From: Arabidopsis thaliana
Lineage: Eukaryota > Streptophyta > Magnoliopsida > Brassicales > Brassicaceae
Assembly (NCBI RefSeq): GCF_000001735.4
Contig: NC_003075.7
Location: forward strand, 10,665,001 to 10,729,000
Length of the DNA stretch: 64,000 nt
Direction: 5' to 3'
A program made the position numbers and the translations under genes. This document shows positions 1 to 41,725 of this stretch, in pieces; positions within the stretch are counted from its first letter, which is position 1, and each line of letters begins with the position of its first letter. The notes beneath the pieces are model-generated. The model ran no database searches. It saw only the letters and a program-made list of their open reading frames with translations, and had not been told where the DNA came from.

Positions 1-515
1 GAGGAGAAGTCAGAAAGTGAAGCTGGAGATATAATTGTAGAGGCAAGAGGAGAAGTCACTGCACTAATAAATTTTTCCTTTTTTTTCCACTAACTAATAA
101 AAATTCCTTTTTTCCCGCCATAAGCGTGACGTCTATTACACGCGTCACTCGTCTAGTGGTTTATAGAAATGTAAAAAAGGAAATCAAATCTTCGTTTAGT
201 AAAAAAGGAAAATCAACCTATAAATTACTGAATTGTATTTGTAAATCAATAAAGTAAATTCAATTTTACCGTCTTTTAATTTCTTCCTCTTCTCTCGTCT
301 CTCTCACGCGACGTTTCTAGGGTTCTTCTGCTTATCTGGAGATTTTGCATAAACTTTCTTTAATGGGTATTGTTTTATCCACCGAATCGTTGCTAATCTG
401 TTTCTGATTTCGTGTGATTATTCGTTCTGTGAATTCCTGTTTAGATTCTGTAAACAAATCCACTGAACGCTTTTTTTTTTGTCGTTTCCTTCTCTGAAGA
501 AACTCTATCAACGAC
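1..515 (+). promoter_or_regulatory. Promoter and leader of first DnaJ-like gene
   Basis: This stretch has no convincing gene apart from the uORF listed separately. The first 60 bases are purine-rich and may be the tail of an upstream gene, but no frame is long enough to judge. From about 110 the sequence aligns with 2985-3390 ahead of the second DnaJ gene. Shared blocks are the TGACGT/TTACGT box near 125, the CTAGTGG box near 154, the pyrimidine-rich initiator near 285-305 and CTAGGGTTCTTC near 317. The leader runs to the ATG at 516 and may hold an intron ending at the GAAG near 500. Confidence 0.6.
363..407 (+). CDS. 14-codon upstream ORF in DnaJ leader
   Basis: ATG at 363 opens a 14-codon frame (MGIVLSTESLLICF) ending with TGA at 405-407, about 110 bases before the main ATG. 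A matching 14-codon frame (MGIVIFTELLHICF) lies at the same place in the second DnaJ copy, at 3224-3268. Length and stop are kept although both upstream and downstream sequence have diverged. It could repress translation of the main frame. If the leader intron starts at the GT within codon 2 (366), the mature mRNA would lack the uORF. Translation is not shown by the sequence. Confidence 0.35.
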   Translation: MGIVLSTESLLICF

Positions 516-2192
516 ATGGAATCTAACAAGGAAGAAGCGAAAAGAGCATTGGATATTGCTGAGAAGAAACTATCAAAGAATGATTACAACAGAGCGAAAA
601 GATATGCTAAGAAGGCTCATCGTATGTATCCAAATCTCGTTGGTTTGGAACAAGTGTTGATAATGATCGATGTTTATATCTCTGCAACAAACAAGATCAA
701 CGGAGAAGCTGATTGGTACAGAGTTCTCGGTGTTGATCCTTTAGCTGATGATGAAGCTGTGAAGAAACGTTACAGGAAGTTAGCTCTTTTGCTTCATCCT
801 GACAAAAACAGGTTTACTGGTGCTGAAGGTGCGTTTAAGTTGATTCTAGAAGCTTGGGATCTATTGTCTGATAAATCTCAGAGAAGTTCTTATGATCAGA
901 AGAGGAAATCGAATCAAGTTAAACAGAGAACGAGTGGAATGCAGAAGCCTAAGAGAAGTTCTACGCCTAAACCAACAGAGTCAGACAAGCCAGCTTCTTC
1001 TTATGGACCTACGCCTCCACCTGAGCCTAGGCCTAAGCGTAGGCCTAGACCTAATATACCTGAGCCTGATATTCCTATGCCTATGCCTACTAGGCATAAA
1101 CCTAAGTCTAAGCCTGATATTTCATTGACAACGGTGAAAGTTGGAACCTTTTGGACGGTTTGCAATAGATGCAAGACGTATTGTGAGTTTATGAGGGCTA
1201 GTTGTCTTAATAAGACTGTACCTTGTCCAAACTGCGGTAAGTATTTCATTGCAACCGTGATACCTTCAGAGTTAGTCAATGGGAGGCTAGTCATCAGATT
1301 GAGTCCTTGTAATCAGTCAACATGGAAAAAAGCAAGTGATGATACTTCTTCAACTTCAGCAATGGCAAAGACTGTACCCGAAAGAGTTAAAAGATGGTTT
1401 GACCCTATGCCTGAGATGGATTCTTCAACGCAAAAAATTGGTACGTTTTGGACAGTGTGCAGTAGATGCAAGACACATTGTAAGTTGGTGAGGGCTAATC
1501 ATCTTAACAAGACCTTCCCTTGTCCTAACTGCAGTCAGGAATTTGTTGCGGCCGAGATGATTATAGAGGTAATCAATGGGGGTCCAGTCATAAAATTGAG
1601 TCCCTCTGTGCAGTCAAATAGCAAAAGGACACGTGATGCTTCTTCCACAACCTCAGCATCTGATAAGGCACAGAGGACTGCATATCAAAAAGAAGAAGTT
1701 TTGAAAAGAGAAAAGATTGATCCTGATGTTGCGTCTGCTGCTACTGGAGAAAATGTAAAAGTAGCAGAGACCCTTTTCAAGGAGCCGATGACAACAGGAA
1801 ACGAAAACTCTACTACTGAAGAAGGAATTGTAAAAGAATCAGAGACCCTTTGCAAGGAGCCGATGACAACAGGAAATGAAAACTCTACTACTGAAGAAGG
1901 AAATGTAAAAGAAGCAGAGACCTTTTTCGAGGAGCCGATGACAACAGGCAATGTAAAAGAAGTAGAGACCCTTTTCGAGGAGCCGATGACAACAGACAAT
2001 GAAAACTCTACTCCTGAAGCAGAGAGGCTTTTCAAGAAGCCGATGTCTACAGGAGACGAAAACTCTACTCATGAAGCTCAAAGGCTTTTCAAGAAGCCGA
2101 TGACAACAGGAAATGCAAACTCTAATCTTGAAGCGCAGAGATGCTTTTTGAGGATATGGCAACGGGAAATGCAATCTCTACTCTTAAAGTAG
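516..2192 (+). CDS. J-domain protein with two FWTxC zinc ribbons (At4g19570-like)
   Basis: A single-exon gene of 558 aa. It belongs to the plant family of soluble J-domain co-chaperones, whose J domain stimulates Hsp70 ATPase activity; the clients are unknown. Residues 1-62 are the helical N-terminal cap (MESNKEEAKRALDIAEKKL) typical of this family. Residues 66-130 are the J domain with the HPD motif at 94-96. A Pro/Arg-rich linker spans about 165-200. Two zinc ribbons follow: residues 209-250 (Cys 216, 219, 237, 240) and 309-346 (Cys 314, 317, 335, 338), each starting with the FWTVC signature. The C-terminus (about 415-545) is a run of degenerate acidic repeats. There is no signal peptide or membrane segment, so cytosolic or nuclear. 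The start is the first ATG in frame and is conserved in both paralogues downstream. Family assignment is firm; the specific role is unknown. Confidence 0.9.
   Translation: MESNKEEAKRALDIAEKKLSKNDYNRAKRYAKKAHRMYPNLVGLEQVLIMIDVYISATNKINGEADWYRVLGVDPLADDEAVKKRYRKLALLLHPDKNRFTGAEGAFKLILEAWDLLSDKSQRSSYDQKRKSNQVKQRTSGMQKPKRSSTPKPTESDKPASSYGPTPPPEPRPKRRPRPNIPEPDIPMPMPTRHKPKSKPDISLTTVKVGTFWTVCNRCKTYCEFMRASCLNKTVPCPNCGKYFIATVIPSELVNGRLVIRLSPCNQSTWKKASDDTSSTSAMAKTVPERVKRWFDPMPEMDSSTQKIGTFWTVCSRCKTHCKLVRANHLNKTFPCPNCSQEFVAAEMIIEVINGGPVIKLSPSVQSNSKRTRDASSTTSASDKAQRTAYQKEEVLKREKIDPDVASAATGENVKVAETLFKEPMTTGNENSTTEEGIVKESETLCKEPMTTGNENSTTEEGNVKEAETFFEEPMTTGNVKEVETLFEEPMTTDNENSTPEAERLFKKPMSTGDENSTHEAQRLFKKPMTTGNANSNLEAQRCFLRIWQREMQSLLLK
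1767..2150 (+). repeat. Tandem coding repeat in DnaJ C-terminus
   Basis: Six to seven degenerate in-frame copies of a 17-24 codon unit built around FKEPMTTGNENST and its variants (EEPMTTGN, KKPMSTGDENST, KKPMTTGNANSN). Units differ in length by whole codons, so copy number can change without breaking the frame. The unit is faintly visible in the tails of the second gene (around 4455-4520) and the decayed third fragment (around 5210-5290), so it predates the cluster's duplication but has expanded only here. Confidence 0.85.
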
Positions 2193-3366
2193 AGAGAACA
2201 CATGATAGATGTGATATAAGAAGTAAGACATTTGGATGTAGAAGTTAATATATATCTGCTTTTGTTTTTTGGTATGCATCAGTAATAGTTTTTTATTTGA
2301 TTTTTGAAACATGAATTTACGACTTAACCTTTTGATTGAAATCTATTTCTTTTTCATTGAAATCATTCATCTCAATCTGCTGCTACCGAATGCTTCTCTG
2401 CTCATTCTCCACTTATCATAAAGGCTCTTTCTTCTTATGTTCACTCTCATAATTCATATAATGAACTACACAGAATTGGGATTATAACATTTTGTTGAAG
2501 TTGAATTCCTTGACTGAATCTGCACAAAGAAAATTAAGCTTGGGTGAGAAGAGATGAAGAAAAGATAAGAAGTAGTTAAAGCTAGAATATTAAGTGTGTG
2601 AATGTGTATCAAGTGGTGAAAGACAAACTATATGTATGTGCGTGAGGACTTGTAACAATCTATATCTATCCTTGTGATCCAATATTATCATTTATCAATG
2701 TAGAAGATTAAAGTAAAGTGTTTATCTTGTTTTCTATCTCCATTAAACGAACAAAACAAAGTGTTAGAGATAGAGAGAAACAGAGAACTAACCTCTAAAG
2801 AGTAAAACAGAGGTTAGGATGTGAGAATGTCAACACATTTTACTTGAGATTTTATAGTTAGAGAATGAAGTGGCTTAATTACCATATTTTAGTTGTGATT
2901 GCATGTCTTCACTTGAAATAGTAAGTTTTAATACTGAATGATTACATACATATTCACCGAGCTGATAAAGTTTCCTTTTTTCCATCCATCAAGAAAATAA
3001 GCGTTACGTGTCAGACACGCCCTAGTGGTTATAAAAAATCTACATTCAATAAAAATCAAATCTTCTTTCAGTAAAAGCAAAATCAACCTATAAATAAATT
3101 ACTTAATAGTTAATACCAAACCATTATTTTACGTCTTTCAATATCTTCCTCTTCTCTCGTCTGTCTCTCGCGGCGGCTCTAGGGTTCTTCCGCTTAACTC
3201 GAGATTTTGCAAACACTTTCTTTATGGGTATTGTTATATTCACCGAATTGTTGCATATCTGTTTCTGATTTTGTGTAATATTTCCTGGATTTTTTTTTTG
3301 AAACTCTGTTATTTTGTCTGTTGCTTCTTTGATTGTTTATGTAGAGGAAGAAACTCTTTCAACGAC
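2193..3366 (+). promoter_or_regulatory. Intergenic DNA and duplicated promoter of second DnaJ gene
   Basis: No gene is seen in 2193-2950, which holds the 3' UTR of the first gene and AT-rich sequence. From about 2960 to 3366 the sequence repeats the promoter and leader of the first gene, so the duplication unit (about 2.86 kb) included regulatory DNA. The shared 14-codon uORF is at 3224-3268. The leader probably contains an intron ending at the TAG near 3345, just before the GAGGAAGAAAC that precedes the main ATG. Confidence 0.6.
3224..3268 (+). CDS. 14-codon upstream ORF, paralogous to the one at 363
   Basis: Frame MGIVIFTELLHICF followed by TGA. It matches the uORF of the first DnaJ gene in length, stop and 9 of 14 residues. 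The caveat is the same: a leader intron may remove it. Confidence 0.3.
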   Translation: MGIVIFTELLHICF

Positions 3367-4452
3367 ATGGACTGTAATAAGGAAGAAGCCAAAAAAGCAA
3401 TGGATATTGCCGAGAAGAAACTTTCGAAGAATGATTACGATGGAGCTAAAACATTCATCAGCAAGGCTCAGGCTTTGTATCCAAAGCTCGATGGTTTGGA
3501 ACAAGTGGTGATGATGATCGATGTTTATATCTCTGCATCAAACAAAATCAACGGAGAAGCTGATTGGTATGGGATTCTCGGTATAGATCCTTTAGCTGAT
3601 GAGGAAGCAGTGAAGAAACAATACAAGAAGTTGGCTCTTTTGCTTCATCCAGACAAGAACAGGTTTAATGGCGCGGAAGGCGCGTTTAAGCTTGTGCGAC
3701 ACGCTAGGGATTTATTATCTGACCAGCCTTGCCTAATTTACAATGTGTATTGCACTTATTGTTTTTGCACACTGTCCAAAAGGTAATGTCTTCCTCCTGT
3801 TTCCGTGGTTTCTTCTCTTTCCATGAAGAATCAGGTTCAGGGTCAGACTCAGACTCAGAAGAGTCAGAATCACACTCGTACGCGTACTTGTGTGGCTTAC
3901 GATCATAAGAGAAAACCAAAACAAGTTAAACGGAAGAGGAGCAGAACGCAGGATCCACCAAAGCCACACAAGTACAAATATAAGTACGAGTTCCGGAAAA
4001 GGAACAGAATGCATAAGCCACACGAGTACGCTTACGAGTGTAATTCTGACTCTTCTGAGTCTGACCCTGAACCTGATTCTTCATGGAAACAGAAGAAACC
4101 ACGAAAACAGGAGGAAGACATTACCTTTTGGACAGTGTGCAAAAACAATAAGTGCAATACACATTGTAAATTAGGCAAGGCTGGTTATCTTAACAAGACC
4201 TTGCATTGTCCAAACTGCCGTCAAGAATTCGTTGCGACAGAGGTAATTCCAGAGATGAAATATGGGAGGCCAGTCTACAGCTTTAATGCTAAATTTCAAC
4301 CAACAAGCAAAAGCACAAGTGATGCTTCTTCTTCTTCTACAACTTCAACATCTGATACCGCAAATGAAGCACAAGATAGAGAGTCGTCACAAGAAGAGTT
4401 TGTTCCTGCTAATGCTTCACCTGCTGCTAGAGGAGATGCAAACGAAGCATAG
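3367..4452 (+). CDS. J-domain protein disrupted by an internal inverted duplication (At4g19580-like)
   Basis: ATG at 3367 opens a J-domain protein closely related to the first gene: N-terminal cap, DWYGILGIDPLADEEAV, HPD motif and LLSD at the end of helix III. At about 3722 the coding sequence runs into an inverted copy of its own later exon. The frame then meets a TAA at 3784-3786 and resumes in the same frame at 3787, continuing through AYDHKRKPKQVKRKR (the expected J-domain tail) to a zinc ribbon (ITFWTVC, then LHCPNC) and TAG at 4450-4452. A working mRNA would have to splice out at least the stop. A GT at 3783 and AGs around 3852-3863 lie inside the inserted DNA, and 3783-3863 (81 nt) would keep the frame. 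Without splicing the product is about 139 aa with a damaged J-domain end. It has one zinc ribbon, against two in the first gene. A live gene and a recent pseudogene are both possible. Confidence 0.6.
3722..4185. repeat. Young inverted duplication inside the second DnaJ gene
   Basis: The left arm 3722-3899 is the reverse complement of the right arm 4014-4185, separated by about 114 bases. Read on the - strand, the left arm encodes the same Ser/Asp-rich linker and FWTVCKNNKCNTHCKLGKAG ribbon start as the + strand right arm. By eye only about six substitutions and one 6-base indel separate the arms (roughly 95% identity). A transcript across both would fold into a stem of about 170 bp. Confidence 0.9.
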
Positions 4453-4869
4453 AGGCTTTTTAACAAGGTGATGACAACAAGAAATGCAAACTCTACTCTC
4501 GAAGCATAGAGGCTTTTCAAGTAACCTATGACAAATGCGAAAATAATAAGTAAGACATGAGGACTTAGCACTCTATATCTCTATTTTTTATTTTGTGTGT
4601 CATTGATAGTTTTATTTTATTTTGATCTTATGAAACTTGGATTTACAGTAATGGAGACACTTCTCTTTGCTATAAAGGTAAGAGACTGATACATCATTCT
4701 TTTTTAATTTCTTTTCTTAGCTTGAAAACTTCTAATAATGATTTGGATCAATAGGTTTTTGAACAGCTAATATCATTGGCATCGGTATTGGATCAATAGT
4801 ACTACACTGCACTATTTAAAGTAAAAGCATTGATGTTGGTTAAAGGTGTTGTCTATGTGCTGTGCAATT

Positions 4870-5340
4870 GAAAGTAGAGTAAAGGCTTAGATTTTGATTT
4901 TGACCGTGTGCAATAGCTGCCAGACATGTTTTGAATATGCAAGGATATTTTATCTTTAACAAGACCTTGCCGTGTCAAAACTGCGGTCAAGATTTCGTTT
5001 CGACCGAGATCACTCCAGAGATGGTCAATGGGAGGCAAGACATCAGACTCAGTACTAATTTTCAGTTTACAAGAAAAAGAGAAAGTGATGCTTCTTCTAC
5101 AACTTCAGCATCTGATAGGGCATAGGCTGAAAAACAAGCACAAGAAACAATAAAAAACATAGTTTGAGGAGTCACGAAAAAAGCTTGATGCTGCTATTGC
5201 TGCTGCTAGAGGAAATGCAAACTCTGCTACATTTGGAGAAGAGAGACTTTCCAAGAAACCGATGAAAAACTCTACTTTCGAAGAAGAAAGGTTTATGAGA
5301 ACTCAAAAGTTAGTAAAACAAAAGACAAATGGTTTATGAG
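4870..5340 (+). pseudogene. Decayed DnaJ zinc-ribbon and tail fragment
   Basis: From about 4890 the + strand reads LTVCNSCQTCFEYARIF, then after a one-base shift FNKTLPCQNCGQDFVSTEITPEMVNGR and SDASSTTSASDRA, ending at TAG 5123-5125. This is the second half of a DnaJ zinc ribbon and its Ser-rich tail. Further fragments of the acidic tail follow to about 5340 (for example KKPMKNSTFEEERFM). No J domain precedes it. The initial FWT is damaged and the frame is broken, so it is a relic of another tandem copy. Confidence 0.8.
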
Positions 5341-6165
5341 AAGAACTGAAACTACTAAAAGAATGACGAAAGTCAGAGAGAGGGAAAAGAGAAAAGAAGG
5401 CGGGAAAGGGAGAGAGGAAAATAACTACTACACTAATAGTTTCCCTTTTCCGTCCCTAAAGTCTAAAATTATTTTTATGTTTGCCCCAATTGTTTTTAAC
5501 AAACTCGAAAATAACCCTTTTGTTTCTAGTCAAAAATTACAATTTTTACACACTGGATCCTTCTTCTTTAATTTTTCGCTTCTCCACCGTTTAGGGCATT
5601 CTGTTATTCAATCGCACAATGTTGCTTGGTTAAGAAGTGGGTCTCCATCAAAAACTGGGCTTTTACACTTATTGGTAAGATGATTTTGCTTTGCACAAGA
5701 ATCCCAAAAGTTTCTTCCTTCTATGGGTTTTGTGTAGTGTCGGAATCTTCAAATCTATTTTGTAATTCGTACGATTACTTTGTTGCTTTATATACAGTAA
5801 CTTGAGAAATCTAGGGCTTGTTCTTTTGACTTGGTGATTTGCATGTATGGTTTTGCCTATAATTAAGATGTTACTTACTAGTTTACACGAGATTCTTCTT
5901 TTTATGAATTGTTTTTATCCATTCTTCGATTGTTGTTTGTGAAATTGTGATTGATTATGTGTAATTATGTAGTGGCTTTGGATAGAGTAACTTCAGATTC
6001 AGAGATCTGTGGCTAAGGACTTGTTTTTCTAACTTAGTGATTTTCATTTACGGTTTTGCTTCTGTTTTTCATCCTTCTTAATCCTTTTTCTTTTGGCTCC
6101 TCCAATTGGTTTTCCATAGAGACAAGGTGCAAAATCGTTTGAAGGATTCTTTGTTCAACAAAGAT
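5341..6165 (+). promoter_or_regulatory. Upstream region and leader of third DnaJ gene
   Basis: No protein gene is supported here. The sequence is AT-rich with a pyrimidine-rich stretch around 5440-5600 that probably contains the transcription start. A likely leader exon ends at the GGTAAGA near 5671. An acceptor TTTTCCATAG ends at 6119, directly ahead of a short leader exon carrying the ATG at 6166, so a 5' UTR intron of about 450 bases is inferred. Confidence 0.45.
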
Positions 6166-7290
6166 ATGGAATGCAACAAGGAGGAAGCTATAAGAGCAAT
6201 GGATATTGCTAAGAGGAAAGTTGCAGAGAATGATTACAACGGGGCTAAGCTTTTTGCTAACAAGGCTCAGGATTTGTATCCGAAACTTGATGGTTTAAGA
6301 CAAGTGATGATGTTGATCGATGTGTATATCTCAGCAGGAAATACAATTAGTGGAGGAGAATCTGATTGGTATGGAATTCTTGGTGTTGATCCTTTGGCTG
6401 ATGAGGAAGTAGTGAAGAAACAGTATAAGAGGCTAGCTCTTTTGCTTCATCCTGACAAGAACAATTGTGAAGGCGCAGAGGGTGCGTTTAAGCTTGTGTT
6501 AGCTGCTTGGTGTTTGTTATCTGATAAGGTTAAGAGAATTGCTTATGATCAGAAGAGGAAGTTGAACGAAGTTAAACCGAAAAGGAGTCGAAAGCAGAAA
6601 CAACCTCCAAAGAAACCACCAAATCAGCCGAAACAACAACCAAATCAGCAGAAACAACCACCAGATCAGCAGAAGCAGCCACCAAATCAGCCTAGACAGC
6701 CACCAAACCAGCAGAAGCAACCACAAAACGAGCCGAAACAACCACCAAACCAGCCTAAACAACCACCAAATCAAGCAAGTACTAATGGTAGAGCTAGAAG
6801 CAAAAAGCCCACTTCCAAAGTTTCTATCTTTTGGACAATGTGCAACAAATGCGAGACACAATATGAGTATGTGAGGGTTTATTATCTTAACAAGACCGTA
6901 CTTTGCCGAAATTGCCGTGGGAATTTTAAGGCAACTGAGATAGAGAAAACACCAACTGAGAAGGAAAAAACACCAACTGAGAAAGAGGAAACACCACAAG
7001 CAACAAACAAGAACACAAATGGTGCTTCGTCTTCTTGTGATAGAGATTCTTCACTAAATGTTAATTTTGATTCTAGTTTTCGACGGGATTCTTCTTTATC
7101 AAGAATGAGTTACTTTAACAGTGGAAATGTGGCAAATCAAGCAGAAGAAAGAGGGAAAAGAGAGGTAAGGGAGTCAGAAGAAGAAGCTGGTAGAGGAATT
7201 GCAAACTCTGATTTGAAAGTAGAAGAGAGAGTTTTTAAGAAGCTGAGGACAGATAACTATGCAGAGTCAAGTAGTGAAATCAAGGTGTGA
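6166..7290 (+). CDS. J-domain protein with Pro/Gln repeat and one zinc ribbon (At4g19590-like)
   Basis: Single-exon frame of 374 aa starting MECNKEEAIRAMDIAK at 6166; the frame is open a little further upstream but has no ATG there and crosses a splice acceptor. The N-terminal cap is followed by a J domain (DWYGILGVDPLADEEVV, HPD, SDKVKRIAYDQKRK). A low-complexity linker of PPNQPKQ/PPNQQKQ units comes next (about residues 145-203), then one zinc ribbon (SIFWTMCNKC, then VLCRNC). The tail is Lys/Glu-rich with TPTEKE repeats. Compared with the first gene it lacks the second ribbon and the MTTGN repeats. It is predicted to be a soluble Hsp70 co-chaperone; no specific function is known from sequence. 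Confidence 0.88.
   Translation: MECNKEEAIRAMDIAKRKVAENDYNGAKLFANKAQDLYPKLDGLRQVMMLIDVYISAGNTISGGESDWYGILGVDPLADEEVVKKQYKRLALLLHPDKNNCEGAEGAFKLVLAAWCLLSDKVKRIAYDQKRKLNEVKPKRSRKQKQPPKKPPNQPKQQPNQQKQPPDQQKQPPNQPRQPPNQQKQPQNEPKQPPNQPKQPPNQASTNGRARSKKPTSKVSIFWTMCNKCETQYEYVRVYYLNKTVLCRNCRGNFKATEIEKTPTEKEKTPTEKEETPQATNKNTNGASSSCDRDSSLNVNFDSSFRRDSSLSRMSYFNSGNVANQAEERGKREVRESEEEAGRGIANSDLKVEERVFKKLRTDNYAESSSEIKV
6600..6777 (+). repeat. Pro/Gln/Lys coding minisatellite in third DnaJ gene
   Basis: About ten in-frame copies of a 6-7 codon unit reading PPNQPKQ, PPNQQKQ and PPDQQKQ. It replaces the Pro/Arg linker found at the same place in the first gene. Confidence 0.85.
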
Positions 7291-8618
7291 AGTAAGCTGA
7301 GGACAGATAATTAGAAGTTTAACAGTGAAGTAGGAACTATGACATTTAGAAGTTTAACAATCAATGATTTTATGATTATGATATTTGAATATTTTGCATC
7401 TAGACTAGGATCTTGTACAGTGGAACCAGGTTAGTTCTTCTTCCTGTCATCTTCAATGTTGAATCTGAAATGTCAAAGCTTTATTTTATTTTTGTTAACA
7501 ATGTGTGCTTTAACAACGTGAGTCAAATTAATCAAAGTGGGTTCACTTAAATTGTTGGAAGAAATTTTACTTCCACTAACTAAATATTTCCTTCTTCGGT
7601 CCCTTCATTCTCAAAAGTTTTTACTTTTGTCCCCAAATATTTTAACGGAGAAGATTTAGTCTCCTACTTCGGGTCATCATATATCACTTGAAAATCGGGA
7701 TATTCGTTAAAAATCCCCCTTTTTTTTTTTTCTTTTCTTGCTTCCTCCCTTTTTTTTTTTTTTTGTTCTTTCCTTTCTCGCGTTTCTTCTCCTAGGGTTA
7801 GGGTTCGACGAACGCAGCTGTTCCACGCGTTTAGTTTCAATTCTCCATCGAAGAAGCCATAATCCGGTGCGTAATCATCGTTTTTGTTATATGTTTCCGA
7901 TTAGGTGTATTATTTTCCGTTTGTTTTCTCGGGTTTGGTAGTTTCACGAACTTTTGCATCTCTCAGATCTATTGTACGTTTTTTCCTTCGTTTGTGACGG
8001 ATTTTTCTGTGAAAAGAGTTTAAATTTCCATGGAGAATTACTCGATTATCTCTAATTTAACTCTTTGGCAATCAAATTTTTCGATTTTATTGTTTTTTTC
8101 TGGATGCGTGAGCTTAGTTATGAACAAGGAGGGTCAACTCGTTTACATGATTCTCTATTCACAGTATTTTCGTGGGAAAGGAGCAATTATGTTTTTGTTT
8201 TCATGATTCATGTCTTTATGTTGCATATTTTGGCCCCTTTTACTCTCATTTAGACTATGTGGTGTTTGTTTTGATGCCATTGTTTTGATTTTCCATCAAT
8301 TAGTAATTTTTTCAGTCCGAATTTCAATTCTTCGTCATTGACCTTGTTGATGATTCCTGTGCTTTCAGATTCCTAAAGAGCTTACATTTGTTACTCAACT
8401 TTAAAGTTTTGACGCTAGAGATTACTATCCTCTTGCTGGGAACTCAACGTGACCAGGTATAAATCTCAGCTCATAGATAAGCAAAGTAGTTTTTTTCTAC
8501 ATCTCTTAGATTTGTACCCTTTTTAGCTCACAGTATCAGTTCAATAACCAAGCTGATCCCTCTTATGAACTTACATTCATTGGTTCTGTTTTTGCTAGAC
8601 TGTGTTTGAAAGATAGCA
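7291..8618 (+). promoter_or_regulatory. 3' end of DnaJ copy 3 and leader of cyclin T gene
   Basis: No separate gene is visible. 7291-7600 is the DnaJ 3' UTR and spacer. A T-rich core (7720-7770) precedes a TAGGGTTAGGGTT telo-box. The cyclin T leader then appears to carry two introns, inferred from splice signals: a donor CCGGTGCG near 7866 with an acceptor TTTCAG near 8369, and a donor AGGTATAA near 8457 with an acceptor TTGCTAG near 8599, just before the ATG at 8619. Confidence 0.5.
7793..7805 (+). promoter_or_regulatory. Telo-box pair (TAGGGTTAGGGTT)
   Basis: Almost two tandem plant telomere-type repeats in the presumed leader of the cyclin T gene. Telo-boxes are known in promoters and leaders of plant genes for translation and cell growth, where they bind Myb-like telomere-repeat proteins. 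Confidence 0.6.
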
Positions 8619-11532
8619 ATGGCTGGAGTATTAGCTGGGGATTGTTCATTCGGTGAGAGTGGTGTTTCATCTTACTCCAGGAATTCCAATGAAAAGCAGG
8701 ACGAGGTTGCCCGCTGGTATTTTGGAAGAAAAGAAATTGAAGAAAATTCACCTTCAAGGTTGGATAGTATTGACTTAAAGAAGGAAACATACCTCCGCAA
8801 GTCATACTGTACATTTTTGCAGGATTTAGGCATGAGATTAAAAGTGTAAGTATAAATTTCTGACCTATATATTTCAGCTTTATACATTGCATTTTCCATT
8901 TGATTACTTCTTGCGAGCTTGGTCTAGGACATGCTAGTTTCTCCTACCATGATAATTGCCTCTATTTTGCTTATAGTATTATAGTGAATTCTTGATCCCC
9001 TTACATTAGGTTCTGTAGGATCGAATTTTGAAATTTATAGAACTTGATATCGTAGAGGTCATTAGAGCATGAATAAGCTAGTCAGAGTTATTGCCTTATT
9101 GGCAACAAAAAGGTGAAACTTGTGGGTTCATCTTGTGTTGTATGGCCCAATAGTCCTTTAATGGCTTTCTGAAATTTAGTATATAGTGATGAACACAATA
9201 CTCTGAATTTATCTTCATATTGACATGGTTTCATTTGCACTGATAGCTTTCACTTTTGGCTCTCTCAATGAACGCGGCTAATATATTTTTCTAATACAGT
9301 CCTCAGGTTACAATAGCTACCGCAATTATCTTCTGTCATCGATTCTTCATTCGCCAGTCACATGCTAGGAATGACAGAAGGGTGAGTATATATTCTTTGC
9401 ACATGGCGTTGTGAATACTTATATACATGGGCCTACTGTTTGTTGTTCGAGCCAGTCTGCTGCTATCTTTGTTTGCATGTATTTGAAGCATTAAATGGCT
9501 CCTTTTCCTTGCGTCCGCTTATATTCATTGTCTCCATGTCTCTGCCAGTTTCCTTTGTATATATATAGAGAGAGCAAATCGGCTGATGCATTAGATGAAT
9601 ATACACTGACTTCTCGCGAATATTCCTGCCATGAATATTAAGCGTTCTCTTAGTCTATTTGGTTAATGCATCTAGTTCTTTGTCCATATTTATCCTTCTA
9701 GAAACTAGCGCAGAACAGTATTAAGATTATTACTGAGTCCTTTTTCCATGTTGTCCTCCCTCCTCACCCAGACGATTGCTACAGTCTGCATGTTCCTTGC
9801 GGGAAAAGTGGAAGAAACTCCTAGGCCGTTAAAAGATGTTATTGTTGTCTCCTATGAGATAATACACAAGAAGGATCCTACTACTGCACAGAAAATCAAG
9901 CAAAAGGTCTGAATATTCTAAACTTTCTCTAATCCGGTTTCCTGTTTAGTAATAAGCGAATTTGCACTGTTTCTCGCATATTCTATTTTACTATGACATA
10001 AGTTTTCTACTAAACCCAGGATTGCACTTGTTTGTGAACAATCCTCCTATGATCATTGTCCTTGTCGTTGGATCTCTCATCTGTGCTGGTCACCGTCTCT
10101 ATTATTTCTCTTCTTTGTACTGAACGTATTTCACTTTTGCAGGAAGTATATGAGCAACAAAAAGAGCTTATACTAAATGGAGAAAAGATTGTACTTTCTA
10201 CGCTGGGATTTGACTTCAATGTTTATCATCCTTATAAGCCTCTTGTAGAAGCGATAAAGAAATTTAAGGTCGCACAGAATGCTCTGGCCCAAGTTGCATG
10301 GAATTTTGTTAACGATGGGTACGTTAAAAGTCTGTTTCCTTGAAAGCTTCAGATAGATCTATCTGTCTTGTATTTTCTTCTTCATACAATGAAAAGATGC
10401 TTGCAGTCTGCGGACGTCACTCTGCCTGCAATTTAAGCCTCACCACATTGCGGCGGGAGCAATTTTTCTTGCTGCGAAGTTCCTTAAAGTGAAATTACCA
10501 TCAGATGGAGAGAAGGTCTGGTGGCAAGAATTTGATGTCACACCTCGACAACTAGAGGGTGAGAGAACTATCTTTATCTTTGAATTAATTTTATGAAACT
10601 GTTTCCACTTTTTCTGTTTGACTTGTATGCCTTATTTTGCATCTGATGCTAAGAGCTACTCCCTTATGTATACTGCAGATGTTAGCAACCAAATGCTTGA
10701 GCTCTATGAGCAAAACCGTGTTCCTGCATCTCAAGTAAGCGAAGTCGAAAGTAGTGTAGGTGGAGGATCAGCTCATCATGTTGGGTCTAGGCCATCAGCA
10801 CGTCTAACTCATGAACATTCAAATTCTGATAATCTCGGGGGCTCGACAAAAGCTACACAAAACCGGAGCAATGATAATGGGAGTGGTGAGGCAGGTAGTG
10901 TCATCACCGAGCAGAAGGGGGAAAGAGATACAGAAACGAAAGATAGCATGCATACTGAAAGTCATCCAGCCCATAAGTCTAGATCGGGAGTTGAGGCACC
11001 TGGGGAGGATAAAATAGAGAAAGCAGGTGCACATTTTCCAGAAGATGATAAATCTAGAATTGTTGGTACAGCTGATGTCACGGTCAGCCAATCCCCAAAA
11101 GACATAAAAATGTTTAGAGATAAGGTGAAGGCCAAACTAGAGGCGAAGAAGGTCCAAGGTGAAAAGACGAGAAAGAAGGATTTGGTGGATGAGGATGATT
11201 TGATAGAAAGAGAACTGGAAGACGTGGAATTAGCTGTTGAGGATGACAAAGATATACAAAACAAAAGCTCCATGGGTACAGAACATGGCGAGATTCTTGA
11301 TGGAAACAACTTGGTGGTCAATACCGAGGAAGGTGAAATGATAGATGATGTTTCTTCAACAATGCCTAGCCGGAAGAGAAAAATGGAAAGTCCTTGTGAA
11401 AAACAGTTAGGAGAAGGAAAGAGACGACACGACAACAGTGAGAATGTGGAAGAAGGTCAGAAGACAAACCCAGGAGGAAGTAGTCATAGTTATGGTGACA
11501 GAGAGCCAAGAAGACACTCCCAAGAGAGGTAG
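8619..11532 (+). CDS. CYCT1;4: Cyclin T, P-TEFb regulatory subunit
   Basis: Six coding exons: 8619-8845, 9300-9381, 9772-9906, 10143-10318, 10407-10558 and 10679-11532. They splice in phase to 541 aa, the length I recall for At4g19600. Cyclin T binds CDKC kinases to phosphorylate the RNA polymerase II C-terminal domain, promoting elongation in the nucleus. The first cyclin box (about 34-140) includes [16 protein letters not shown], the T/K-cyclin signature, and [14 protein letters not shown]. The second box (about 155-260) includes [21 protein letters not shown]. The C-terminal half (about 280-541) is disordered, rich in Ser, Lys, Glu and Asp, with a basic end typical of plant CYCT. The start is chosen because MAGVLAGD follows the last leader acceptor and no other in-frame ATG lies upstream in the exon. 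Confidence 0.95.
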
Positions 11533-40477: not shown

Positions 40478-40703
40478 ATTTTTTTTAATTTGTGTCAATA
40501 TCTGATTTGGTTTGATTCTAGACTTCGTTTGTTTTCTCAAATTGTGCAAGTAAAAAACACGAATATATCTATTTTTTATTTTATGTTCAGAAAAAAAAAA
40601 ATATATATATATATATATATTCGTGTTTTTTACTTGCGCAATTTGAGAAAACAAACGAAGTCTACAATTAAGCGAAATCACACATTGACACAAATTAAAA
40701 AAT
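40478..40703. repeat. Long near-perfect inverted repeat (foldback) between IRT2 and IRT1
   Basis: The left arm about 40478-40568 is the reverse complement of the right arm about 40612-40703 with about 90% identity; the centre is an A-run and an (AT)n stretch. Best-matched core: GACTTCGTTTGTTTTCTCAA and its complement. No clear target-site duplication was found. It could be a foldback MITE or a young inverted-duplication small-RNA locus. Confidence 0.85.
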
Positions 40704-41725
40704 ATTTCTTTTCTCGACCGAAAAAAGAAAATTATTTCACCAATATGGAAAATCTCCCCAAGTTCATTCTATTTTCTGTATCAAAGTTAACGAATAGACA
40801 TATAAGCATTTTGTCACGTCGGTGGAGTATGAGTTTGGCACGTTTTGTTTCGTGCTCGTCCAACCATATGAAAACGTGGGAGGTAAACCACTCAACTAAT
40901 AATATTATACCTTTAAAAAAACTATATTATAAATCCAGTTTGATGCTTATTTTATTAATCATTCTTCAAAGAAATAAAACTTAAATAGTGAAAATTATAA
41001 CCGAAGTTGACTAGTTAGGAGGCATGCCATGGAATATTGGATACATACTCGGCATGGACAGTATTGAATATACAGGATAATGTAGATAACTATATTTTCT
41101 ATAATTTATTTTGTGTCAACTATTTTTTCTATGATTCTGATGATTAATTGCATGACAATCAATCAAATTAATTATGCCTTCTTCTATATAACCATGCAAA
41201 ACCAAAAAAAAAAAGATTATTTCGAAACGACATGAGAATCAAAAGAACTCATAAATCCTAATAGACATGAAATTATGTATACAGTTATAACATTGAAATA
41301 TCTTAATACCTTACCTAAAAGATAACTAGATTAATAACCATAAAACCAATAATCATTAAGTCAATAACCCCATAATCTTATAAATGAAGTCAGTGACTAT
41401 ATGTTCATGTAAAAATGCGTAAGTTCATAGCTAGATGTCCCTTTTTTAGGAGCACATGGATTGACACATTAAACATTCATACCCGATTTCATGGAATTCT
41501 ATTTGTCATTATCCTTTCCCAAAAACTTAGTTGTTTCTTAGTTATTAAACCTTGAAAAAAAATCAATTCAAAAATGAAAAATGACTTATATGTATGTCAT
41601 TTTTGAAAACTAGACATCAAGCTATGAAAAGAGGAATCTATTTACCGAATAAAGGAGGAGGAATCTACATTCATATGTAGTGTTTTTGGTGACTGGATTG
41701 CAACCATACACTGAGCACAAGCTGT

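Follow-up and report, generated by a model that had tools for sequence, protein, structure and literature searches.

Young MIRNA loci can be born by inverted duplication of protein-coding genes, as Allen reportedly set out in 2004, and this model of plant miRNA birth has often been inferred from diverged foldbacks. Evidence for a recent origin of 16 MIRNA loci from protein-coding genes by this route is given in passages of PMC1790633, which also state that DCL1 has limited activity on perfectly paired double-stranded RNA and that new inverted duplications possibly go through a stage of mixed siRNAs. For endogenous inverted repeats, processing relies on DCL2, DCL3 and/or DCL4, with DCL1 assisting (excerpts of PMC12825306). 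An inverted copy of flanking sequence, shared bases and a small deletion are described as possible traces of template switching (excerpts of PMC8794818) and of templated-insertion end joining (excerpts of PMC7407515).

Here we report an inverted self-duplication, real and well preserved, inside a coding gene of Arabidopsis thaliana. It lies in a window (the whole stretch of DNA analysed, 64,000 nucleotides; G000:C4:10665001-10729000) of a genome of 119.66 Mb in 7 contigs, in a cluster of three neighbouring DnaJ genes, the second of which (gene 2, start at 3367) carries the inverted self-copy. We take genes 1, 2 and 3 to be At4g19570, At4g19580 and At4g19590, respectively. We hold with moderate confidence that one event copied a tract of gene 2 in inverted orientation and thereby made the stop at 3784 and the hairpin, and that, if the gene is transcribed, processing by siRNA-making Dicers is most likely. 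The observed part of this reading comprises the anatomy of the repeat, the assignment of the inserted arm by means of paralogs, the junctions, the stop, the predicted fold and the guide complementarity; from the sequence we infer the repair mechanism, the age and small-RNA production from gene 2, as well as its transcription, dicing and silencing. Because the source, the copy, both junctions and insert-free paralogs are all readable, the birth of a hairpin gene can be described here nearly base by base. If the siRNA reading is true, the locus would show a proto-MIRNA at the moment of its birth, and the parent sequence, both junctions and two target genes would all lie within 7 kb; if it makes no small RNAs, it would be a clean example that an intragenic inverted duplication need not start RNA silencing.

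In its structure, gene 2 belongs to a known class, the young gene-derived inverted duplications. As in the young MIRNA and proto-MIRNA loci described in excerpts of PMC1790633 and PMC13128112, its arms were copied from a protein-coding family, form a long, near-perfect stem and possibly target the parent family; unlike in those loci, the copy lies inside its own source gene, 114 bp away, and contains a stop, and the hairpin is only predicted. Like gene 2 as predicted, IR71 (excerpts of PMC12825306) folds one transcript into a long, near-perfect hairpin of the sort that DCL2, DCL3 and DCL4 would be expected to cut, but it is a double-stranded RNA of ~3 kb with known siRNAs, whereas gene 2 has a predicted stem of 168 bp within a coding gene. 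The template-switch hairpins of rRNA and of human/mammalian microRNA genes (excerpts of PMC8794818) resemble gene 2 in the one-step copying of a nearby reverse complement, followed by later mismatches; the largest template-switch-like pattern in the rRNA discussion of that source measures up to 59 bp, whereas the copy in gene 2 has ~172 bp and lies in a plant coding gene. The insertions attributed to SD-MMEJ / polymerase theta (excerpts of PMC7407515, which give no length limit) likewise join a copy of flanking DNA, in either orientation, to a small deletion, and also show short stretches of shared sequence (5-7 nt and 1 nt at the two junctions of gene 2), but in our judgement the tract copied in gene 2 is long in comparison.

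The kind of event is already known; the instance in gene 2 was not found in print in the literature searched. That literature, which excluded most subscription papers and supplementary tables, gave no mention of At4g19580, and two papers contain one of the neighbouring codes At4g19570, At4g19590 and At4g19585. The search for intragenic inverted copies returned no paper, and the searches on inverted repeats, on self-complementary mRNA, hpRNA and DnaJ, on MIRNA birth, on template switching, on end joining and on natural variation returned general papers.

The DnaJ cluster and the inverted repeat

Genes 1 and 3 encode proteins with a J domain and a zinc ribbon (Pfam DnaJ and Zn_ribbon_20). The J domain of gene 2 (DnaJ, PF00226; 62.6 bits) covers positions 1-56 of the 63 positions of the profile and lacks the last 7, and its Zn_ribbon_20 match (25.3 bits) is slightly below the curated cut-off of 27, which genes 1 and 3 exceed. 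The region upstream of gene 2 is retained (259 of 342 columns alike in comparison with gene 1). The features of the cluster are listed in Table 1.

Table 1. Positions of genes, repeat arms and candidate elements in the DnaJ cluster (window coordinates).
Feature	Position	Strand	Evidence
Gene 1, DnaJ paralog, open frame, insert-free	516-2192	+	ORF, domain search, paralog alignment
Possible target site in gene 1	1442-1462		guide scan
Gene 2 frame up to the insert-made stop, 139 aa, J domain with HPD motif	3367-3786	+	
Hypothetical alternative intron, 147 nt, in frame (312 aa); donor weak, acceptor fair	3694-3840	+	
Inserted left (5') arm, reverse-complement copy of 4014-4185	3722-3899	-	BLAST, alignment
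Hypothetical intron, 81 nt, in frame, removing the stop (334 aa); donor AG/GTAATG fair, acceptor AAGAG poor	3783-3863	+	
In-frame TAA stop inside the inserted arm	3784-3786	+	
Spacer (loop), 114 nt, native to the gene, part of the linker that follows the J domain	3900-4013	+	alignment
Right (3') arm, source copy in place; linker at 4014-4125, first part of the zinc ribbon at 4126-4185	4014-4185	+	
Gene 2 zinc-ribbon coding part, now past the stop	4126-4236	+	Zn_ribbon_20 profile
Gene 3, DnaJ paralog, open frame, insert-free	6166-7290	+	ORF, domain search, paralog alignment
Possible target site in gene 3	6825-6845		guide scan

An earlier note on this DNA had described an inverted copy of a later part of gene 2 at the end of its J domain, ahead of a 114-nt spacer, and both the local alignment of the arms and the comparison with seven paralogs bear this out. 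The 178 nt of the left arm are the reverse complement of the 172 nt of the right arm, with 167 of 178 alignment columns identical; the differences are five substitutions and one 6-nt indel of a TCAGAC unit, and the first 81 columns are free of any difference. The arm identity, previously put at about 95%, is better stated as 93.8% if the indel is counted and as 97.1% over the 172 ungapped columns. The copied stretch had been taken for the zinc-ribbon exon, which holds for 60 nt (Zn_ribbon_20 begins at 4126), but the remaining 112 of the 172 nt are linker.

A BLAST search of 3600-4300 against the plant's own genome gave the arm-to-arm match at 273 bits (E 5.5e-72) among 15 matches in all, some of them to the family over the J domain or the zinc ribbon, and the right arm as genome query matched itself and the left arm and nothing else. 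In a control scan for inverted repeats (14-base seed, distance up to 2000), 19 of the 20 sampled 10-kb pieces (200 kb of contigs C1 and C5, spaced along the two chromosomes and not random) had no inverted repeat of at least 60 nt, and the remaining piece gave a 110-nt pair at 76%. The scan tool does not cross gaps and reported the gene 2 repeat split at the indel, into a 183-nt pair (86%) and a 63-nt pair (90%). A chance repeat was rejected on the basis of the arm BLAST match, the z score of the predicted fold (see below) and the 20-piece control. That the repeat is an artefact of assembly or cloning is hardly credible: a cloning foldback should give identical arms, whereas five substitutions and a 6-nt indel separate these two, and the insert site has lost 16 bp to the replacement.

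The cluster has several further repeats and domain variants. Gene 1 contains an imperfect repeat array in its C-terminal coding part (1748-2159), gene 2 retains sequence related to these repeats, with two TAGs (4431-4530), and gene 3 has a coding repeat of 21 nt (a 7-residue, proline/glutamine-rich unit) between the J domain and the zinc ribbon (6574-6794). The first zinc knuckle reads C-x4-C in gene 2 (4135-4160) and C-x2-C in genes 1 and 3; both arms of gene 2, which are identical there, contain the additional 6 nt, which therefore probably predate the inverted copy. The zinc-ribbon stretch of gene 2 (4126-4188) also scores above the cut-off for the Pfam WCCH motif (PF03716; 26.7 versus 22.4 bits), which is absent from the Pfam match table for genes 1 and 3. 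Between genes 2 and 3 lies a DnaJ fragment (4890-5340) that resembles the zinc ribbon and tail of gene 1, has no J-domain match listed, contains an in-frame stop (C4:10669955-10670134, 1 TAG) and is probably a decayed partial duplicate.

Polarity, junctions and probable origin of the insert

The polarity of the insertion rests on paralogs. A protein search gave 49 matching stretches genome-wide, from which the J-domain ends of seven paralogs (gene 1, gene 3, four on C5 and one on C2) were aligned and the remainder left out. A long extra stretch was present in gene 2 only and absent from all seven. Because these paralogs lack it, the left arm is to be regarded as the insert, with 16 bp of the J-domain end apparently replaced, and the converse, in which the right arm is the copy and the left arm the original, was rejected on the same seven. 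The zinc-ribbon part of the right arm is in the sense orientation, as expected for the family.

The site in gene 3 reads TCTGA-TAAGGTTAAGAGAATT-GCTTATG, and the other paralogs are similar. Between TCTGA and GCTTA, there are 172 nt in gene 2 versus 16 nt (TAAGGTTAAGAGAATT) in gene 3. The ancestral letters at the junctions are those suggested by the paralogs, and the junction position is our own reading of the alignment, in which the aligner itself set the gap a few columns further on. GCTTA (5 nt) is common to the copied tract and the target at the right junction, or GCTTATG (7 nt) if one later T-to-C change is allowed, since the copied source and gene 3 have a T where gene 2 now has a C; at the left junction, they share 1 nt (A). 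No target duplication was seen at the insert site, where 16 bp are replaced. On these two grounds, and with no other genomic match to the arm, the insertion of a MITE or another transposon was rejected.

We propose that one mutational event copied ~172 bases of gene 2, comprising the linker and the start of the zinc ribbon, in reverse into the end of its own J domain and replaced 16 bp there. The route would have been template switching at a replication fork or repair of a break by templated insertion, primed in either case by a few shared bases. A single event of this kind is the most likely mechanism and fits the junctions, which join an inverted flanking copy and a small deletion to some shared bases and show no target duplication. 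The junctions of gene 2 suit template switching and templated-insertion end joining alike. Against the reading stand the single shared nucleotide at the left junction and the length of 172 nt, which in our judgement seems long for a templated insertion.

With a rate of 7e-9 substitutions per site per year, the five substitutions in 172 sites correspond to an arm age of ~2.1 My (Poisson interval 0.7-5.1), assuming that the arms are neutral and free of conversion. All five mismatches fall in the last 91 of the 172 columns (one-sided chance 0.04); the figure is therefore rough, and the arms may be partly homogenised, so that ~2 My is possibly too low. The word 'newborn', which had been applied to the locus, is thus to be taken in a relative sense, at roughly 2 My by the divergence of the arms.

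The reading frame of gene 2

A stop within the insert had already been noticed, and it is indeed in frame: the J-domain frame enters the insert and ends at the TAA, which gives a product of 139 aa without linker and zinc ribbon. Unless splicing removes the insert, gene 2 can no longer make a DnaJ protein with both domains. The insertion altered the length by a multiple of three (172 nt in, 16 out), and the frame downstream of the insert stop is open from 3787 to 4452, so an intron could rescue the protein.

Candidate splice sites were scored by simple counts of consensus letters only. The two in-frame introns in Table 1 would remove the stop and give a two-domain DnaJ protein of ~312-334 aa, with the insert turned into a spliced part of the gene. 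For the best donor, at 3783, every in-frame acceptor up to 3911 is poor, and the better ones nearby shift the frame when used with it; the donor at 3694 is weak, and the other candidate introns listed suffer from weaker donors or from acceptors just as poor. The database protein length for gene 2, presumably 312 aa, would fit the intron at 3694-3840. Such a rescue is favoured by this length, the preserved frame and the existence of in-frame candidates, but the poor quality of the sites, and the absence of any extra stretch at this position from the seven paralogs aligned, make it quite unlikely.

The frame of gene 2 ends in a TAG at 4450, at a point where the repeats of gene 1 have GCAGAG; the following repeat copy in gene 2 carries the same TAG. 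These changes, together with the stop inside the insert, the zinc ribbon that scores below the cut-off passed by genes 1 and 3, the degenerate DnaJ fragment that adjoins (C4:10669955, 1 TAG) and the lack of the code At4g19580 in the literature searched, would fit an inert scar, that is, a decaying and hardly transcribed gene copy in which the inverted tract plays no small-RNA or regulatory role. This is possible, if less probable than the reading that we prefer: the J-domain frame is open, the gene 1-like upstream region is retained, and some local inverted duplications in Arabidopsis thaliana are, according to excerpts of published work, sources of small RNAs.

Predicted hairpin and candidate guides

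The preferred reading, a single inverted copying that created both stop and hairpin, has its second element in the RNA fold. The predicted fold of 3700-4210 has -326.9 kcal/mol versus -118.6 +/- 5.6 for 100 shuffles (z -36.9), and a 511-nt stretch of gene 1 folded for comparison has -121.4 kcal/mol. Of the left-arm bases, 168 of 178 are paired to the right arm, with a single G-U among the pairs, in good agreement with the ~170 bp expected earlier; the longest uninterrupted helix has 83 bp. A sense transcript would thus form a 168-bp stem with a 114-nt loop. The spliced forms fold less strongly (-201.4 kcal/mol for 430 nt and -176.5 kcal/mol for 463 nt, values for different lengths); splicing could remove part of an arm, which counts against the hairpin reading.

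Gene 2 has the long repeat, predicted to fold as one transcript, and the arms from a protein-coding gene (the right arm in place, the left arm as its copy) that characterise inverted-repeat and proto-MIRNA loci, and also the nearby reverse-complement copy with sharp junctions that characterises template switching. It lacks the short, imperfect and bulged stem of MIRNA genes that is suited to DCL1, having a perfect helix of 83 bp within a stem of 168 bp. The near-perfect stem would be expected to feed siRNA-making Dicers rather than to serve as miRNA precursor, and the locus resembles a long endogenous hairpin or proto-MIRNA. If gene 2 is transcribed, DCL4, DCL2 and DCL3 would most likely process the hairpin to mixed siRNAs of 21-24 nt.

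The suggestion that the locus marks the birth of a miRNA is thereby narrowed: the inverted self-copy is proto-MIRNA-like, but the 83-bp perfect helix does not suit a miRNA precursor. A maturing MIRNA gene, with genes 1 and 3 under the control of a single defined miRNA released by DCL1, is very improbable. Inverted duplication of protein-coding sequence is, in excerpts of published work, a route to young MIRNAs, and the complementarity to gene 1 is good. Against it stand the very long and very perfect stem (83 bp with zero mismatch), the little-diverged arms and the absence of an Rfam match in 1-9000 at the gathering score and in 3600-4300 at E up to 1. Rfam covers some plant miRNA families only.

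The 5' arm, which is antisense to the family in a sense transcript, would yield guides against the gene's own mRNA and, from its zinc-ribbon end, also antisense guides against genes 1 and 3. All 158 possible 21-nt guides of this arm were scanned with a simple penalty scheme of our own, modelled on those of plant target prediction (cut-off 4 or less). Gene 1 is fitted by 17 of them (19 guide-site pairs, best penalty 1.5) and not by the other 141, and gene 3 by 4 of 158 (4 pairs, best 2.5). The fitting guides all start between 3732 and 3769, at the zinc-ribbon end, and a few extend up to 8 bases into the linker. No site at a penalty of 4 or less was found on either strand of 55,001 control bases, and the DnaJ fragment at 4890-5340, though related, was fitted by no guide at 4.5 or less. 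With up to 3 mismatches, the target site of the best guide has 9 matches genome-wide, and a reversed control pattern has 2; of the 9, two are the arms themselves, gene 1 holds two, gene 3 one and further DnaJ matches on C5 two, and the last two lie elsewhere. The misfit of most guides to gene 1 and of the related fragment counts against the preferred reading, as do the missing Rfam match and the lack of At4g19580 in the literature searched. The proposal that small RNAs could reach both neighbours therefore stands in terms of sequence fit, but for these few guides only.

The guide complementarity follows from the homology of the genes and is not evidence of function; an action in trans on the DnaJ cluster is possible in sequence terms, no more. 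The fullest version of the preferred reading is doubtful, namely that a single repair event, probably in Arabidopsis thaliana alone, turned gene 2 into an intragenic hairpin gene with a J-domain-only product and with siRNAs that would dampen the gene itself and its two neighbours.

The window contains one other inverted pair, at 40478-40705, with 95-nt arms that are 91% complementary and a TA-rich loop of 38 nt. As a genome query, this element matched itself (on both strands) and four places that match only its TA-rich middle; since these four matches are confined to the middle, it does not seem to belong to any large MITE family and is a possible hairpin locus.
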